Source of the DNA: an uncultured Saprospiraceae bacterium | GTDB lineage: Bacteria > Bacteroidota > Bacteroidia > Chitinophagales > Saprospiraceae | DNA: 63,949 nt | Assembly: GCA_905480605.1 (NCBI GenBank) | Contig: CAJQRD010000064.1 | Span: 1 to 63,949 of the forward strand | Reading direction: 5' to 3' | In this document: positions 13,235 to 23,998 of the stretch, piece after piece | Layout of the letters: every line of letters starts with the position of its first letter | Position numbering within the stretch: the stretch's first letter is position 1 | Program-made: the position numbers and the translations under genes | Notes under the pieces: model-generated | What the model was told of the DNA's origin: nothing | Seen by the model: only the letters and a program-made list of their open reading frames with translations | The model's database searches: none

Positions 13235-14401
13235 ATGTCTGATAAACAAGTTTTCATTTTTGATACAACTCTGCGTGATGGCGAACAAGTTCCCGGGTGC
13301 AAGTTAAATCATAAGGAAAAATTAAAAGTAGCAAAAGGAATTGAAGCTTTAGGCGTTGATGTTCTAGAAGCTGGATTTCCAATTTCCAGTCCTGGAGACT
13401 TTCAGGCTGTAGAACTTATAAGCAAAGAGATTCGAGAGCCTATTATTTGTGCATTGTCAAGGGCTGTAGAGGCAGATGTCAAATGTGCGGCAGAAGCTTT
13501 AAAACATGCACAACGTCCTAGAATCCATACGGGTATCGGAACTTCAGAGCAACATATAAAATATAAATTCAAATCATCGCCAGAGGGAATTATTGAAAGA
13601 GCTAAAGCAGCAGTTAAATACGCCAAGTCATTTGTAGAGGATGTAGAGTTTTTTGCTGAAGATGCAGGAAGGACTGACAATGTATATCTAGCAAAAGTTA
13701 TCGAGGCAGTAATTTCTGCGGGAGCAACAGTTGTCAACATTCCAGACACTACAGGTTATTGCTTGCCCTATGAGTACGGGCACAAAATCGCTTTTCTAAA
13801 GGAGCATGTAAAAAATATTGACAAAGTCATTATTTCAGCGCACTGCCATAATGATTTAGGTTTAGCTACAGCAAATTCTCTTGTAGGAGTTGAGCATGGT
13901 GTAAGACAAATTGAATGCACTTTAAATGGTATTGGTGAACGTGCAGGAAACACTTCTTTGGAAGAAGTTGTAATGGTTTTGAAACAAAAATATAAGTCCA
14001 AATACTTTACAAACATCAATACACAAATGTTGAATCCATTGAGTCGCTTGGTTTCTGAAAGTATGTCCATGCCAGTACAAGCCAACAAGGCAATAGTTGG
14101 TGAAAATGCATTTGCTCATTCTTCAGGTATTCACCAAGATGGAGTGATTAAAAACAGGTTGAATTATGAGATTATAAATCCGCTAGATGTTGGTGTTGAT
14201 AAATCTCAAATAGTTTTAACAGCAAGGAGCGGAAGAGCGGCATTGGCTTATAGAGCTAAAGAAGTGGGTTATGAATTAAGCAAAGATGAATTGGATATTG
14301 CTTACCGTCAATTTATTCAATTGGCAGACAGAAAGAAGCAAGTAGAGTCCTATGAATTGGAGACAATGTTGTCGCAGTCATTTAGAATGGTGAACGTATA
14401 A
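13235..14401 (+). CDS. leuA: 2-isopropylmalate synthase, short form
   Basis: 388 residues. It condenses 2-oxoisovalerate with acetyl-CoA in the first committed step of leucine synthesis. The TIM-barrel signature [13 protein letters not shown] (residues 9-21) has the metal and catalytic residues, and [13 protein letters not shown] (about residues 203-215) carries the second metal-binding His motif. [14 protein letters not shown] follows. The protein ends soon after the SGIHQDG region and lacks the C-terminal LeuA dimer (leucine-binding) domain of the roughly 500-residue enzymes, so classical leucine feedback is not expected at this enzyme (inference). It is the first gene of leuACDB, 1 bp before leuC. 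Confidence 0.95.
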
Positions 14402-17454: not shown

Positions 17455-17496
17455 AAATAATTTTTAATAATTTTTTTATTGGAATATGAACTACTC

Positions 17497-17504
17497 TACA
17501 TTTG
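17497..17504 (+). promoter_or_regulatory. Promoter -7 box of the ilv leader
   Basis: TACATTTG fits TAnnTTTG exactly. A TTG at 17479-17481 lies 15 bp upstream, shorter than usual. Transcription would start about 17510, just before the leader peptide start at 17532, so ilvDBNCA probably has its own promoter. Confidence 0.45.
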
Positions 17505-17531
17505 AATTTGATAAGTCTTCAAAGGACAGTT

Positions 17532-17594
17532 ATGAATACAAACATCAACAGTATAATTTCAATTATTATTAACAGTGTGATTATTATCACGTAA
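17532..17594 (+). CDS. Ile-rich leader peptide of the ilv attenuator
   Basis: A 20-codon open frame, ATG 17532 to TAA 17592-17594, reads MNTNINSIISIIINSVIIIT. Nine of 20 residues are isoleucine and one is valine, including two runs of three Ile codons. Such composition is the hallmark of leader peptides that sense charged tRNA-Ile. It sits directly upstream of an antiterminator/terminator pair and the isoleucine/valine gene ilvD. The stop codon ends 2 bp before the antiterminator arm (17597), so a ribosome at the stop would mask that arm. Stalling at the earlier Ile codons would leave it free. The peptide itself needs no function. Confidence 0.85.
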   Translation: MNTNINSIISIIINSVIIIT

Positions 17595-17596
17595 TG

Positions 17597-17660
17597 ATTG
17601 AGAATGGTATTTGAAAAAAATATAATAATAAAAGCCATCCTCATTGAGAATGGCTTTTTT
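17597..17660 (+). promoter_or_regulatory. Antiterminator/terminator of the ilv attenuator
   Basis: ATTGAGAATGG occurs twice: at 17597-17607 (arm 2) and at 17643-17653 (within the terminator's 3' side, arm 4). Between them lies AAAAGCCATCCTC (17630-17642, arm 3). Arm 3 can pair with arm 4 to make the terminator: 9 bp AAAAGCCAT/ATGGCTTTT, one mismatch, then CTC/GAG and a T-run at 17655-17660. It can equally pair with arm 2 to make the antiterminator. The T-run ends 11 bp before the ilvD ATG at 17672. With the leader peptide this is a complete ribosome-mediated transcription attenuator. Confidence 0.88.
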
Positions 17661-17671
17661 AATTGGCACAT

Positions 17672-19345
17672 ATGGAACTGAATAAATATAGTAAACATGT
17701 AACATCTGATCCTACACAACCAGCAGCTAAAGCTATGCTTCATGCTATAGGGCTAACGGAGGAGGATCTTAGTAAGCCACAAGTAGGAATTGTCAGCACT
17801 GGTTGGGAAGGGAATCCTTGTAATATGCATCTAAATGATTTGGCTAAACAAATTAAAGTGGGTGTGAATGCTCAAGACTTAATAGGGCTGATATTTCATA
17901 CAATTGGGGTGTCAGATGGTATTTCAATGGGAACTTCTGGTATGAGATTTTCGATGCCTTCACGTGATATTATTGCTGACTCTATAGAGACTGTAGCTTC
18001 AGCTCAGTGGTATGATAGTATAATAGCGGTTGTAGGTTGTGATAAAAACATGCCTGGTGCGCTTATGGCGTTGGGACGACTAAACAGACCTGGAATTTTG
18101 TTCTATGGGGGTTCAATTGCGCCTGGTTGTCACAAAGAAAAGGACTTAACAATTATCTCAACTTTCGAAGCTTTAGGAGAACACATTGCGGGCAATATAG
18201 AAGAAGTAGAATTAAAAAATATTATTAAAAAAGCTTGCCCTGGAGCTGGTGCCTGTGGTGGAATGTTTACGGCCAATACAATGGCATCAGCAATCGAGGC
18301 AATGGGAATGAGCCTACCTTTTAATGCCTCTAATCCTGCAGTAAGTGATAATAAAAATATTGAATGCGGTCATGTTGGAAAGTATGCAAGATTGCTTTTA
18401 GAAAAAGATATTAAGCCTAGAGATATTGTAACGAAGTCATCATTGATCAATGCGATGAAAGTCGTTACTGTATTGGGTGGATCAACAAATGCTACTTTAC
18501 ATATACTTGCTATTGCTCATGCTTTTGGACTTGATTTTAGTTTGGATGATATTCAAAAAATAAGCGACGAAACACCTTATTTGGCAGACTTGAAACCTAG
18601 TGGAAAATATGTTATGCAAGACCTACACAAGGTTGGGGGAGTCCCTGCAGTTATGAAATTAATGCTAAATGAAGATTTGCTTGATGGCAGTTGTTTGACC
18701 GTAACCGGTAAGACAATTGCAGAGAACTTAGCAAATGTTAGTGAACTCACTCAAGGGCAAAAAGTGATATATCCGGTTGTTCAACCATTAAAGTCTTCAG
18801 GTCACTTACAGGTTTTAAAAGGAAATCTTGCAAGTGAAGGATCCGTAGCTAAGATAACAGGAAAAGAAGGATTAAAATTTGTTGGCCTTGCTCAAGTTTT
18901 TAATTCAGAAAAGGAATGCAATATCGCAATTCAAGCTAAGAAAATTAATGCTGGAAGTGTAGTTGTTATCCGATATGCGGGACCAAAAGGCGCACCAGGA
19001 ATGCCTGAAATGCTAAAGCCTACTGGTCTTTTAGTGGGTGCTGGTTTGGGTAACGATGTTGCGCTAATTACCGATGGGCGATTTTCTGGAGGAACACATG
19101 GGTTTGTTGTTGGTCATATAACACCAGAAGCTTACAATGGAGGGATGATTGGGTTACTTAAAAATGGAGATAAAATCACAATCGATACCGAAAGTAATTT
19201 GATAGAAGTTGACCTTTCCGATAAGGAAATTGATAAACGTAAACGCAATTGGCAACGACCAAAAGATGAAGTGACAGGGTTTTTAAAAAAATATAGATAT
19301 ACTGTTTCATCTGCAAGCCAAGGGTGTATAACCGATGGGTTTTAA
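17672..19345 (+). CDS. ilvD: Dihydroxy-acid dehydratase
   Basis: 557 residues from ATG 17672; the in-frame TTG at 17663 is less likely because it lies 2 bp after the attenuator T-run. It dehydrates dihydroxy-acids to the 2-oxo acids of isoleucine and valine. Iron-sulfur ligands are in [13 protein letters not shown] and [15 protein letters not shown], and [14 protein letters not shown] is the C-terminal signature. It is the first gene of ilvDBNCA, directly behind the attenuator, so its expression should follow the supply of charged tRNA-Ile. The next gene starts 11 bp after its stop. Confidence 0.97.
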
Positions 19346-19356
19346 AATCAACAATA

Positions 19357-21093
19357 ATGGGAACATTAATAGCAAAAAGAAAGAAAGAATCCTCTCAAAT
19401 TAATAGACCAATCTCTGGATCTGAAGCAATATTGAAATGCTTATTAAAAGAGAAAGTGGATACGATTTTTGGTTATCCTGGTGGTGCAATTATGCCAATT
19501 TATGATGCGCTATACGATTATCAAAAAAGACTTACCCATTTGATGTCTAGACATGAACAAGGAGCGATTCATGCTGCTGAGGGATATGCAAGAGCGTCAA
19601 GAAAAGTTGGTGTTTGTTTTGCAACATCAGGACCTGGTGCAACAAATATGTTTACTGGTTTAGGAGATGCCTTGATGGATTCGACTCCCTTGGTTTGCAT
19701 CACAGGACAAGTTTACAGTCACTTACTGGGATCTGATGCTTTTCAGGAGGTTGATGTTATTGGTTGCACAACATCGATTACAAAATGGAATTATCAAATT
19801 ACTGATGCTAACGAAATTCCTGAAGTTATGGCAAAAGCATTTTATATAGCCAATTCAGGACGACCTGGTCCTGTCCTTATTGATATTACAAAGGATGCTC
19901 AGTTTCAGGAGATTAAATTTAAGTATAAGTCTAAGCCAGATATTAGAAGTTACAGACCTCTGCCACTTGTTAACCCAGATCAAATTAATGAGGCTGCAAA
20001 ATTAATTAATGATGCTAAACGTCCTTTGATCTTGGCTGGTCATGGAATTCAAATTGCTGAAGCTCACGATGTGTTTAAAAAATTTATTGAAAAATCAGGT
20101 ATTCCTGTCGGTGCAACGATTCATGGCTTGTCCTCAATTCCAAGTGATCATCCTTTGTTTATGGGTATGCTAGGCATGCATGGTAATATGGGACCTAATG
20201 TTATGACAAATCGTTGTGATGTTCTCATTGCAATTGGTATGAGGTTTGACGATAGAGTTACAGGTGATCTTAAACGGTATGCCAGTCAGGCCAAAGTAAT
20301 TCATATAGAAATTGACGCTTCGGAGTTTAATAAAAATGTAAAGGTCGATATGCCGATTCATGCTGATGCTAAAGAAGCATTAGTGGAATTGATCAAGAAA
20401 GTTAAAAAGAAATCCTACCCGACGTGGTTGAAGAGATTTCATGATTGTGATAAAAAGGAATTTAAAAAAGTAATTTCTAATGCTACTGCTGAATTAAAAA
20501 GTGGGCCAATTAGAATGTCTCAAATTATAAATGAAATTTCTAATCAAACTAAAGGAAATGCAATAGTAGTAACAGATGTGGGTCAGCATCAGATGTTAGC
20601 AGCACGTTATTACAATTATGCAGATAAAAACTTATGGATTTCTTCTGGTGGTGCAGGAACAATGGGGTTTGGCCTACCTGCGGCTATTGGAGCAAAAGTT
20701 GCACGGCCTGAAAAGGAAGTTATTGCATTTGTTGGTGATGGAGGTATTCAAATGACGATACAGGAACTGGGCATGTGCTTTCAATATGGGATTAGCGTGA
20801 AAATAGTTTTGCTAGATAATGAATATCTAGGAATGGTACGCCAATGGCAGGAATTGTTTTTTGAGAAACGGTATTCATTTGTAGATATGGTCAATCCAAA
20901 TTTCACAAAAATTGCTGACGCCTATAATATAGCGACATGCAAAATAGATGATGCTAAAGATGCTAAAGAATCAATTTCGAAAATGTTAGAACATGATGGT
21001 TCTTTTTTACTACATGTAAAGTGTATAAAAGAAGAAAATGTATTTCCAATGATTTCTACAGGTAAAGCTGTGGATGAAATTGTATTAGAATAA
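19357..21093 (+). CDS. ilvB: Acetolactate synthase large subunit
   Basis: 578 residues from ATG 19357; the frame is open to 19324, but the ATG there lies inside ilvD, so the later start is preferred. It makes acetolactate or acetohydroxybutyrate from pyruvate and 2-oxobutyrate using thiamine diphosphate. [15 protein letters not shown] and the catalytic Glu in [15 protein letters not shown] are near the N-terminus; [13 protein letters not shown] to [14 protein letters not shown] is the diphosphate/Mg motif near the C-terminus. It pairs with the regulatory subunit encoded 14 bp downstream. Confidence 0.97.
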
Positions 21094-21107: not shown

Positions 21108-21638
21108 ATGGTTAAAGATTTTACACTAACTGTTTTTACAGAAAACAGGACAGGTGTTCTTAGCAGAGTTGTTGGTATAGTCACAAGAAGGCACATTAAT
21201 ATTGAGTCAGTTTCAGCTTCTGAATCTTCAATTGATGGCATACATAAAATAGTCGTTGTTGTAAAAGTTACAGAAGCTTTAATTCAAAAACTAATAGGTC
21301 AATTGGACAAGCAAGTTGATGTTTTGAAATCCTTTTATTATGACAATGACGAAATTGTCTATCAAGAAATTGCACTCTATAAAATACCTAGTGAAAAATT
21401 CTATAATGGTGATGAAGTAGAAACGTTGGTTCGAGAATATAATGCAAGAATTTTACGGATTGAACAAGAGTATATTGTTGTTGAAAAAGCTGGCTATCCT
21501 GAAGAAATTGTGGCTTTACTCAATGAGTTTAAACGAATTGGCATTTACGAATTTATAAGATCAGGCAGAGTTGCAATTGTTAAACAAATGGAAAGACTAA
21601 ATACATATTTAAAAACTGAACAGGCGAGAGTCAATTAA
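21108..21638 (+). CDS. ilvN: Acetolactate synthase small (regulatory) subunit
   Basis: 176 residues. The N-terminal ACT domain (FTLTVFTENRTGVLSRVVGI, then RRHINIESVSASES) binds valine in known homologues and confers feedback inhibition on IlvB. The C-terminal domain (about residues 85-165) is the usual second half of the long-form small subunit. It lies between ilvB and ilvC in the same transcript. The symbol ilvH would be equally valid. Confidence 0.94.
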   Translation: MVKDFTLTVFTENRTGVLSRVVGIVTRRHINIESVSASESSIDGIHKIVVVVKVTEALIQKLIGQLDKQVDVLKSFYYDNDEIVYQEIALYKIPSEKFYNGDEVETLVREYNARILRIEQEYIVVEKAGYPEEIVALLNEFKRIGIYEFIRSGRVAIVKQMERLNTYLKTEQARVN

Positions 21639-21674: not shown

Positions 21675-22718
21675 ATGGCTAAAATTAATTTTGGAGGAGT
21701 TGAGGAGGAAGTAGTAACAAGAGAAGAGTTCCCTTTGTCAAAGGCTAGAGAGGTTCTAAAGGATGAAACAATAGCAATTATAGGATATGGAGTACAAGGT
21801 CCAGGACAAGCACTGAACCTCAAAGATAATGGCTTCAATGTTATAGTAGGTCAGCGATCACCATCTAAATCTTATGATAAGGCTATTGCTGATGGATTTG
21901 TTCCAGGTGAAACATTATTCTCTATTGATGAAGCTGCCAATAGGGGGACAATTATACAGTATTTGTTGTCAGATGCCGCACAGATTGCTGTTTGGCCTAC
22001 AATTAAACATCACTTAACTGCTGGAAAAGCATTGTATTTTTCTCATGGATTTGGTGTTACATATAAGGAACGAACAGGTATTATACCTCCTTTGGATGTT
22101 GATGTTATTCTAGCTGCACCAAAAGGGTCAGGGACCAGTTTAAGACGGTTGTTCTTAGCAGGTAAAGGTTTGAATTCGAGTTATGCTATTTTTCAAGATG
22201 CAACTGGAAAAGCACAGGAACGTGTTACCGCTTTGGGAATAGGTATTGGTTCTGGCTATCTGTTTGAGACAACTTTTAAAAAGGAGGTTTTTAGTGATTT
22301 AACGGGAGAGCGAGGAACATTGATGGGTGCAATACAAGGTTTGTTTGCTGCGCAATATGATCTTCTTAGAAGTAAAGGGCATTCACCATCTGAGGCGTTT
22401 AACGAGACTGTTGAAGAGGCAACTGAATCTCTGTATCCGCTAATTGCGGAGAATGGGATGGATTGGATGTATGCGAATTGCTCGACCACTGCACAACGAG
22501 GGGCTCTTGATTGGTGGAAAAAATTTAGAGATGCTACTGCACCCGTATTTAAAGAATTGTATGAGAGTGTGGAAGTTGGTAATGAAGCTCAATTGTCTAT
22601 TGATAGTAACAGTAAAGAAGACTATAGGGTTAAGCTAGAGGCTGAGTTGGCTGAGTTAAAAAATTCTGAAATGTGGAGAACAGGAAGAGCAGTAAGGGGG
22701 TTGAGACCAAGAAATTAA
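21675..22718 (+). CDS. ilvC: Ketol-acid reductoisomerase
   Basis: 347 residues, the short (class I) length. It isomerises and reduces acetolactate or acetohydroxybutyrate with NAD(P)H and Mg. The Rossmann signature reads IGYGVQGPGQALNLKDNG (about residues 36-53). The more common form has GSQGHAHALNL, so the usual His is replaced by Pro, as I recall for the Bacteroidota branch. The next loop GQRSPSKSYDKA has Arg and Ser residues that suggest NADPH preference (inference). The C-terminal knotted domain includes SDLTGERGTLMGAIQGLF with the metal-binding Asp and Glu. It ends 20 bp before ilvA. Confidence 0.95.
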   Translation: MAKINFGGVEEEVVTREEFPLSKAREVLKDETIAIIGYGVQGPGQALNLKDNGFNVIVGQRSPSKSYDKAIADGFVPGETLFSIDEAANRGTIIQYLLSDAAQIAVWPTIKHHLTAGKALYFSHGFGVTYKERTGIIPPLDVDVILAAPKGSGTSLRRLFLAGKGLNSSYAIFQDATGKAQERVTALGIGIGSGYLFETTFKKEVFSDLTGERGTLMGAIQGLFAAQYDLLRSKGHSPSEAFNETVEEATESLYPLIAENGMDWMYANCSTTAQRGALDWWKKFRDATAPVFKELYESVEVGNEAQLSIDSNSKEDYRVKLEAELAELKNSEMWRTGRAVRGLRPRN

Positions 22719-22738
22719 TTTATCACACATTTAGCAGT

Positions 22739-23998
22739 ATGGCAATAAAAATATCATCATTAATTTCTGTTTCAGAAATTCAATCCGCACGATCTCGTAT
22801 ATCAGATGTAGTGGTGAAAACACCATTCATGTATAATTTCAATTTGTCAGAAAAGTATGATTGTAACATCTATTTAAAACGAGAAGATATGCAGTCTGTT
22901 AGGTCATTTAAAATTAGAGGAGCTTATAATAAAATAGCATCTTTAAACGAAAAAGAAATAGCTAACGGTATTGTTTGTGCGTCAGCAGGAAACCATGCTC
23001 AAGGAGTGGCTTTGTCGTGTTGTAGATTAGGAATAAAGGGAAAGATATTTATGCCAAATACTACACCAAGTCAAAAGATTAAAAAGGTTAAATACTTTGG
23101 TAAATCATTTGTTGAAGTTGTGCTAATTGGTGATACTTTTGATGATGCTTATGAAGCAGCTTGTTTAGATGCAAATCGAACTAATGCTGAGTTTATACAT
23201 CCTTTCAATGATAAAAAAGTAATTGAAGGACAAGGGACTGTTGGGGCTGAAATATTAGAACAAACAGATGTTGCTTTAGATTATATCCTAGTAGCAGTAG
23301 GAGGGGGAGGTTTGATTTCTGGTGTAGGATCTTATTTCAAAACACTAAGTCCTAAAACTAAAATAATTGCTATTGAAGCTGAGGGCGCACCAGCTTTATC
23401 TGAATCATTAAAGTTACAGAAAGTTGTTCGGTTAAATTCAATTGATGGCTTTGCAGATGGCATAGCCGTTAAGGCTATAGGTAGCTTAACTTTTGAAATT
23501 TGCCAGAAAGTTGTAGATTCAAACATATTGGTCCCTGAAGGAAAAATTTGCTCAACAATATTGTCCTTGTATAATGATGATGCTATTGTAGTCGAACCTG
23601 CAGGGGCAGTATCAATTGCAGCATTGGATTTTATTAAAGATAACATTAAAGGAAAGAATGTTGCTGTGATAGTTTGTGGCGGAAACAATGATATTGAACG
23701 CACACAAGAGATAAAAGAGCGTGCACTTTTATACGAAGGATTAAAGCATTATTTTATTATTAAATTTCCTCAACGAGCAGGCGCATTGAAAGATTTTTTA
23801 AATGTTCTAGGTCCAAATGATGATATTACTCATTTCCAATATACAAAGAAAAACAATCGAACAAACGGTCCGGCCTTGGTTGGTATAGAATTGAAAAAGA
23901 AAGAGGATTTTGAAATGTTAACAGATCGAATGAATAAGCAAGGAATAAATTATCAACATATTAACAATAATCCTATGCTTTTTGAAATGTTGGTCTAG
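22739..23998 (+). CDS. ilvA: Threonine ammonia-lyase (biosynthetic)
   Basis: 419 residues from ATG 22739. The frame is open to 22673, but that would overlap ilvC and adds no conserved sequence. It deaminates threonine to 2-oxobutyrate, the entry to isoleucine synthesis, with pyridoxal phosphate. The PLP lysine lies in RSFKIRGAYNK (about residues 55-65) and the glycine-rich phosphate loop in VAVGGGGLISG. A C-terminal ACT-like regulatory domain (YFIIKFPQRAGALKDFLNVLG onward) would allow isoleucine feedback. It is the last gene of the ilv transcript, which ends at a 20-bp hairpin. Confidence 0.96.
   Translation: MAIKISSLISVSEIQSARSRISDVVVKTPFMYNFNLSEKYDCNIYLKREDMQSVRSFKIRGAYNKIASLNEKEIANGIVCASAGNHAQGVALSCCRLGIKGKIFMPNTTPSQKIKKVKYFGKSFVEVVLIGDTFDDAYEAACLDANRTNAEFIHPFNDKKVIEGQGTVGAEILEQTDVALDYILVAVGGGGLISGVGSYFKTLSPKTKIIAIEAEGAPALSESLKLQKVVRLNSIDGFADGIAVKAIGSLTFEICQKVVDSNILVPEGKICSTILSLYNDDAIVVEPAGAVSIAALDFIKDNIKGKNVAVIVCGGNNDIERTQEIKERALLYEGLKHYFIIKFPQRAGALKDFLNVLGPNDDITHFQYTKKNNRTNGPALVGIELKKKEDFEMLTDRMNKQGINYQHINNNPMLFEMLV

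Follow-up and report, generated by a model that had tools for sequence, protein, structure and literature searches.

What controls transcription of the ilvDBNCA genes in an uncultured Saprospiraceae bacterium? We analyzed a 63,949-nt stretch of its DNA (hereafter the window) in which, by NCBIfam assignment, the gene order leuA-leuC-leuD-leuB is followed by ilvD-ilvB-ilvN-ilvC-ilvA, with a spacer at 17455-17671 separating leuB from ilvD. An earlier reading of this DNA from its letters alone (the sequence-only reading) had placed a ribosome-mediated attenuator in this spacer, ahead of an ilvDBNCA operon. The five gene identities that it gave are supported by NCBIfam models scoring over cut-off, all on the + strand: ilvD, dihydroxy-acid dehydratase (17672-19345, TIGR00110); ilvB, acetolactate synthase large subunit (19324-21093, TIGR00118; the longest frame, with the domain match starting at residue 31); ilvN, acetolactate synthase small subunit (21108-21638, TIGR00119); ilvC, ketol-acid reductoisomerase (21675-22718, TIGR00465); and ilvA, threonine ammonia-lyase (22673-23998, TIGR02079; again the longest frame, matched from residue 35).

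Within the spacer, on the + strand, lies a predicted leader frame of 20 codons, MNTNINSIISIIINSVIIIT (17532-17594; ATG at 17532, TAA at 17592-17594), nine of which read as Ile and one as Val. A second in-frame stop, TGA, stands directly behind the TAA (17595-17597). The leader stop ends 2 nt ahead of an 11-mer, ATTGAGAATGG, that is present twice, at 17597-17607 and at 17643-17653; its first copy is arm 2, the 5′ arm of a putative antiterminator, defined by sequence, folding and pairing tests in relatives. The shared partner, arm 3 (AAAAGCCATCCTC, 17630-17642), is placed by sequence and the same pairing tests, and arm 4, the 3′ arm of the terminator (GAGAATGGCTTTT, 17646-17658), by sequence and folding. 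With a T6 run at 17655-17660, the hairpin (-12.2 kcal/mol) constitutes an intrinsic terminator between leader and ilvD, whose ATG at 17672 is 11 bp past the T6 run and 77 nt downstream of the leader stop. A terminator scan reports the hairpin before ilvD on the - strand only; by our reading of its rule, the + strand call is absent because the scan treats the T run as part of the stem. Further upstream, an element at 17497-17504 (TACATTTG) resembles TAnnTTTG, which we take to be the Bacteroidota -7 promoter box motif. All coordinates of the sequence-only reading held when re-read (box, leader, pair of 11-mers, shared arm, T6 run and ilvD start), as did its arms 2 and 3 and its terminator, but it contained neither the tandem stop nor an arm 1.

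This further arm emerges from the minimum-energy structure of 17512-17661, which, folded without a ribosome, reaches -32.1 kcal/mol (z -3.4). The structure holds the terminator together with a long hairpin in which arm 1, within the leader (17557-17569), pairs with 17591-17603 and thereby takes up arm 2 as far as its seventh base. This hairpin encloses a smaller one, GTGAT-TATT-ATCAC, over the last leader codons (17577-17590); by eye, a relative (L046) has GTCAT-TATT-ATGAC as its counterpart. A fold without arm 4 (17595-17645) brings arms 2 and 3 together at -8.5 kcal/mol, and when arm 2 is left out (17608-17661) the terminator forms (z -4.2). Folding with and without arm 2 had been proposed in the sequence-only reading. 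The classical set of 1:2, 2:3 and 3:4 pairings can therefore be drawn in full, with 2:3 and 3:4 mutually exclusive. Taken singly in the window, the 1:2 hairpin is no better than shuffled sequence (z -1.0), and the 2:3 pairing is modest on its own, with p of 0.007 or 0.045 against shuffled linkers, depending on where the linker is cut. The combination of a leader as dense as the window's (9 I/L/V in 12 codons) with a hairpin of -10 kcal/mol or lower and a T run occurred in 0 of 604 dinucleotide shuffles made from 151 ilvD upstream regions.

We give a probability of roughly 93% to the reading that this region is a ribosome-mediated transcription attenuator through which charged tRNA-Ile (and, family-wide, tRNA-Val as well) would control ilvDBNCA. 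RNA polymerase would either start upstream of 17532 or read through from leuACDB, and transcripts arriving from leuB would meet the same switch. A ribosome would then begin the 20-codon leader. With isoleucine plentiful, it would get to the tandem stop at 17592 and mask arm 2 (17597-17607), leaving arm 3 to pair with arm 4 as a terminator and the transcript to end near 17660. When isoleucine is short, the ribosome would stall within a run of Ile codons (8-13 or 17-19) and open arm 1; arm 2, now free, would pair with arm 3, blocking the terminator and allowing ilvDBNCA to be transcribed. In a transcript that carries no translating ribosome, arm 1 would be expected to sequester arm 2, so that termination would be the default. 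The mechanism itself is ordinary, a textbook case, and unsurprising. If it works as drawn, transcription-translation coupling would be required in Bacteroidota.

If the spacer is a regulatory leader, its parts should recur before ilvD in related genomes, as the sequence-only reading had expected of an alignment. It is this comparison between genomes that supplies the strong evidence. A first scan of 120 genomes located ilvD in 53, the window's own included; the comparison covers genomes with an ilvD match, and those lacking one (6 of 13 from the same genus among them) fall outside it. Also set aside from the upstream set were G057, whose match lies at the end of a contig, G099, in which the match is split, and the more distant second copies of IlvD/Edd. 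By eye, the pattern is present in about half of the 51 upstream regions from the own and relatives set. We then used a detector that calls a frame of 8-45 codons with at least 7 I/L/V in 12 and, behind it, a hairpin at least as stable as -10 kcal/mol before TTTT, the hairpin starting between -6 and +70 nt from the leader stop. It was applied to 161 ilvD loci (51 from the own and relatives set, 30 from a phylum-wide draw and 80 named), which came to 151 distinct regions after removal of eight duplicates and two loci with less than 400 nt upstream (L009, 156 nt; L092, 28 nt).

The detector passes 63 of the 151 distinct upstream regions, window included, as against 5 of 604 dinucleotide shuffles. 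Because its threshold of 7 in 12 was picked after the relatives had been viewed, we give the real and shuffled passes at other thresholds alongside: 69 and 16 at six, 57 and 2 at eight, 40 and 0 at nine, and 24 and 0 at ten. By source, passes number 25/50 for the own and relatives set, 6/30 for the phylum draw and 32/71 for the named loci. Sixty further regions, hand-picked from the matches listed so as to spread over other families of the phylum and run as real sequence only, yielded 18 passes; one of them (L224) repeats an earlier region (L018), neither passing, so that overall 81 of 210 distinct regions pass. The remaining 129 fail the detector (25/50 own and relatives, 24/30 phylum draw, 39/71 named and 41/59 hand-picked). 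The anticipated alignment is borne out among carriers, where frame and competing arm are kept amid drift, but not across the 129 regions that fail.

Within the same genus, seven loci, counting the window, have 400 nt or more of upstream sequence, and the pattern is present in six of them (L001, L006, L017, L036, L046 and L049). L020, of this genus too, retains sequences that resemble the arms when inspected by eye but lacks an Ile-rich frame, and is perhaps a decayed copy of the attenuator; L009, also from this genus, shows no terminator in the 156 nt examined. A Saprospiraceae MAG (L087, JAHDFP010000017) carries the same leader as the same-genus genome G002. Named loci that pass include Saprospiraceae MAGs and Flavobacteriaceae such as Dokdonia pacifica (L115), Aquimarina (among them A. 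mytili, L143), Winogradskyella epiphytica (L129), Bizionia arctica, Allomuricauda and a Maribacter MAG. Over the 81 leaders (1648 residues), Ile makes up 29.6%, Val 15.4% and Leu 6.8%; the first 26 leaders gave 171 Ile, 77 Val and 23 Leu in 516 residues. This mixture in the relatives suggests that the family probably senses both Ile and Val, the window copy being nearly pure Ile. Seven leaders of a single family (f43; L194, L197, L199, L202, L206, L221 and L225) have in common a stretch I-S-L-V-I-I and a tail Y-[RHQ]-[SP]-G-[KRE], a degree of peptide conservation that, as judged from these frames, exceeds mere richness in branched-chain residues.

These counts bear on a simpler account, in which the hairpin is a mere constitutive terminator of leuACDB and the Ile-rich frame a by-product of ATT-rich intergenic DNA. 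The hairpin does lie 3′ of leuB in an AT-rich region, and the detector also accepts 10 of 151 reverse complements of the upstream regions, a higher rate than for shuffles. The low rate for the shuffles themselves speaks against such an origin, however, and leader and terminator also stand together before ilvD genes that have no leuB in the upstream DNA examined (e.g. L005, L010, L016 and L036). Furthermore, a plain terminator has no need of an arm 2 that follows arm 3 from genome to genome.

Across the 63 passing loci, the mean pairing energy of arm 2 (taken as the sequence surrounding the stop) with the arm 3 of its own locus is -13.09 kcal/mol, compared with -8.44 for foreign arm 3s. In 2000 permutations of the arm 3 partners the mean was -8.52 kcal/mol (sd 0.34) and the lowest value -9.77, the permutations leaving shared base composition and ancestry in place. 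Locus by locus, the 2:3 pairing reaches p ≤ 0.05 against shuffled linkers in 47 of 63; the other 16 lie above this value, and L039, L144, L146 and L150 are without any sign of it. A pair table aligned on the GCC of arm 3, covering 64 of the 81 leaders and leaving out the 17 with no usable GCC, shows two-sided changes at six of the nine positions (4-9), in 3:4 and 2:3 alike, with inherited changes counted repeatedly. Arm 3 occurs, for instance, as GCCATTC, GCCGTTC, GCCTTTC or GCCTGTATC, and both partners change to match; G-U wobbles are more frequent in 2:3 than in 3:4. The table leans towards pairing because arm 2 was placed wherever it formed the best duplex with arm 3, and the permutation of 2:3 partners is the fairer test. 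With arm 2 tracking arm 3 across genomes in this way, we regard a constitutive leuACDB terminator as very unlikely. The attenuation logic of the sequence-only reading gains support from this joint change of the arms in carriers, together with the kept frame rich in branched-chain residues. Its duplicated 11-mer fared differently: both arms do pair with arm 3 in relatives, but exact identity of the two copies is only local.

The putative arm 1 was compared in the same way. Paired with its own partner, arm 1:2 reaches -10.87 kcal/mol over the 63 loci, against a permuted mean of -8.49 (sd 0.28), while its z has a median of -0.97 and falls below -1.64 in 23 of 63.

The attenuator as drawn also depends on where arm 2 lies relative to the stop. 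With arm 2 sought from -18 to at most +25 nt of the stop end, the paired segment has its start at -18 to +6 nt in 59 of the 63 passing loci, window included. In several relatives (e.g. L007, L021, L022, L029 and L108) arm 2 falls within the final codons of the leader (...GWY); elsewhere, as in the window, it lies just past the stop. Judged by the size of the ribosome footprint, a ribosome at the stop would cover arm 2 in both placements.

Translation of the leader might instead act on ilvD mainly by another route. Upstream open reading frames in other bacteria can work through a Rho site or through re-initiation, and here stalling in the leader might expose or hide such a site, or ribosomes might re-initiate at ilvD, whose start is 77 nt past the leader stop in the window. 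Against both schemes stand a complete intrinsic terminator and a co-varying antiterminator. Moreover, although the hairpin lies within 86 nt of ilvD in 35 of the 63 passing loci, ilvD is 139-307 nt past it in the other 28, which is far for simple re-initiation. We hold an upstream frame acting mainly in either of these ways to be very improbable.

Mutually exclusive hairpins suit any attenuator, and the choice between them could in principle fall to a metabolite, an uncharged tRNA or a protein, as in a riboswitch, a T-box or a binding-protein attenuator. Against a switch that is independent of translation, Rfam searches of 40 loci (window included) gave no match at gathering score over the ilvD leaders: one batch of 20 loci had no matches at all, and the other had three, all away from the ilvD leader and none to a leader family. 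The window likewise has no gathering-score match to Rfam leader families (Thr_leader, Leu_leader, His_leader, Trp_leader and others). Its best-scoring family over the leader is Thr_leader (RF00506; 17545-17664), which reaches 23.4 bits where 55 would be required (E 0.045), a weak sub-threshold match that does not make the window leader a member. In addition, the conserved sequence 5′ of the arms is a reading frame that abounds in codons for the products of the pathway and ends near arm 2. We regard a translation-independent switch as very unlikely. We accordingly rejected a plain terminator with a chance frame, a riboswitch or T-box, and an Rfam leader family as descriptions of this locus. The Rfam matches at gathering score among the flavobacterial loci are a SAM-II riboswitch (L128, 1611-1670), a tRNA (L129, 1001-1073) and a Flavo-1 RNA (L143, 6549-6650).

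The promoter is far less clear. The -7 motif occurs within 75 nt ahead of 7 of 60 leaders, against 3.6 expected, which is barely above chance (three of the 63 leaders, with less than 70 nt in front, are left out of this count). The box that the sequence-only reading had marked is present in the window at its given position, but the motif is not clearly enriched before the leaders of relatives, and we rejected the promoter claim on this ground. The promoter itself is a guess.

Attenuators of this type are well known from enterobacteria, in ilvGMEDA with its leader ilvL and in ilvBN with ivbL. In general features, these share with the window locus a leader peptide rich in branched-chain amino acids, alternative hairpins and a downstream operon of the same pathway. 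They differ in that the window leader is almost pure Ile, with Ile/Val and little Leu in its relatives, and in the gene order, ilvDBNCA here standing behind leuACDB. Outside the Proteobacteria, passages of PMC11857589 and PMC10272879 describe a leader frame and hairpins before the ilvBNC operon of Corynebacterium; this leader belongs to another phylum and precedes other genes, and is termed the ilvB-II motif there, and the window leader has no Rfam match at gathering score.

In the same phylum as the window, the sections of a 2021 study of Flavobacterium psychrophilum that bear on 5′ regions report strong clues for leader-peptide attenuation before amino-acid operons, naming structured 5′ elements ahead of hisG and pheA (PMC9723704). 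In that paper, 'ilv' is absent from the main text, and the section on 5′ cis-regulatory RNAs gives neither arms nor covariation. For Bacteroides thetaiotaomicron, an extract of PMC7366714 notes short ORFs that resemble leader peptides, and PMC4833913, in the portion seen, cites a comparative paper by Lopatovskaya et al. 2010. Among the matches listed, titles and abstract openings of open-licence papers, a scope that excludes most subscription papers, described no ilv leader in Bacteroidota. The remark in the sequence-only reading that its author knew of little experimental work on such leaders in this phylum is qualified by the flavobacterial leaders reported in the 2021 study (PMC9723704). 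Such attenuators are already suspected in the phylum but have seldom been described there; candidates with co-varying hairpins are now seen in many of its members. Our results provide sequence-level evidence that a classical, translation-coupled attenuator regulates the synthesis of branched-chain amino acids in a phylum that is both large and of ecological importance. The 81 candidate leaders are material for a family model.

The window's genome has further candidate leaders. Before hisG (G000 C91, L052) is a frame, MNFSHLHHHHFHTCYQARS, with six His codons and the stop TAATGA, followed by a strong GC hairpin whose T tail is poor, starting with T3 only, and which the detector does not call; we regard it as a probable his leader. 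Before trpE (G000 C123, L053), the frame MKLFTNTSWWLKSDNTYRD has two Trp codons and the stop TGATAG, with a terminator of -18.8 kcal/mol and an antiterminator pairing at p 0.019. Tandem stops close all three leaders (ilv, his and trp) of this genome, yet over the 81 ilv leaders they number 10 against 4.5 expected, and we dropped them as a striking hallmark. By eye, the 5′ flank of thrA has no Thr/Ile-rich frame with a terminator, and there is no leader with a terminator upstream of leuA.

A broader reading is that ribosome-mediated ilv attenuation is old and inherited in Bacteroidota: one leader-arm architecture, its arm bases replaced in step, would control ilvD in Saprospiraceae, in Flavobacteriaceae and in certain remoter families, and, with the his and trp leaders, the mechanism would represent standard amino-acid control in the phylum. 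We consider this an even bet.

The LeuA protein of the window (13235-14401, 388 aa) matches only the first 381 of the 494 positions of TIGR00973, below cut-off. It seems to be without the C-terminal part, which we take to be the regulatory domain; leucine is possibly sensed elsewhere.

A second element came to light before ilvD in relatives, mostly where the attenuator is far from the gene. It comprises two GTAA boxes (TCGTAAG, TCGTAAC or TTGTAAG) whose spacing is exactly 67 nt in 13 of 18 loci and 66-69 nt in 17 of 18, counts that are biased because the 18 loci were chosen by eye and anchored by hand, some being close relatives. The 67-nt spacing is found in L007, L008, L011, L021, L022, L026, L108, L120, L116, L137, L140, L143 and L146, and spacings of 66, 68 or 69 nt in L003, L010, L029 and L040. 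The window, where the T run and ilvD are only 11 nt apart, does not carry the pair. An RNA consensus structure was sought for the element in 17 loci, and none was obtained. In a search of 10 genomes, one-mismatch matches were at the level of a reversed-pattern control, while the zero-mismatch pattern gave one match in each of four genomes, all before ilvD. Between the boxes, most loci have yTGnnnnTCA near position +23, and as a sequence pattern the pair looks like a fixed-spacing, protein-binding DNA element.
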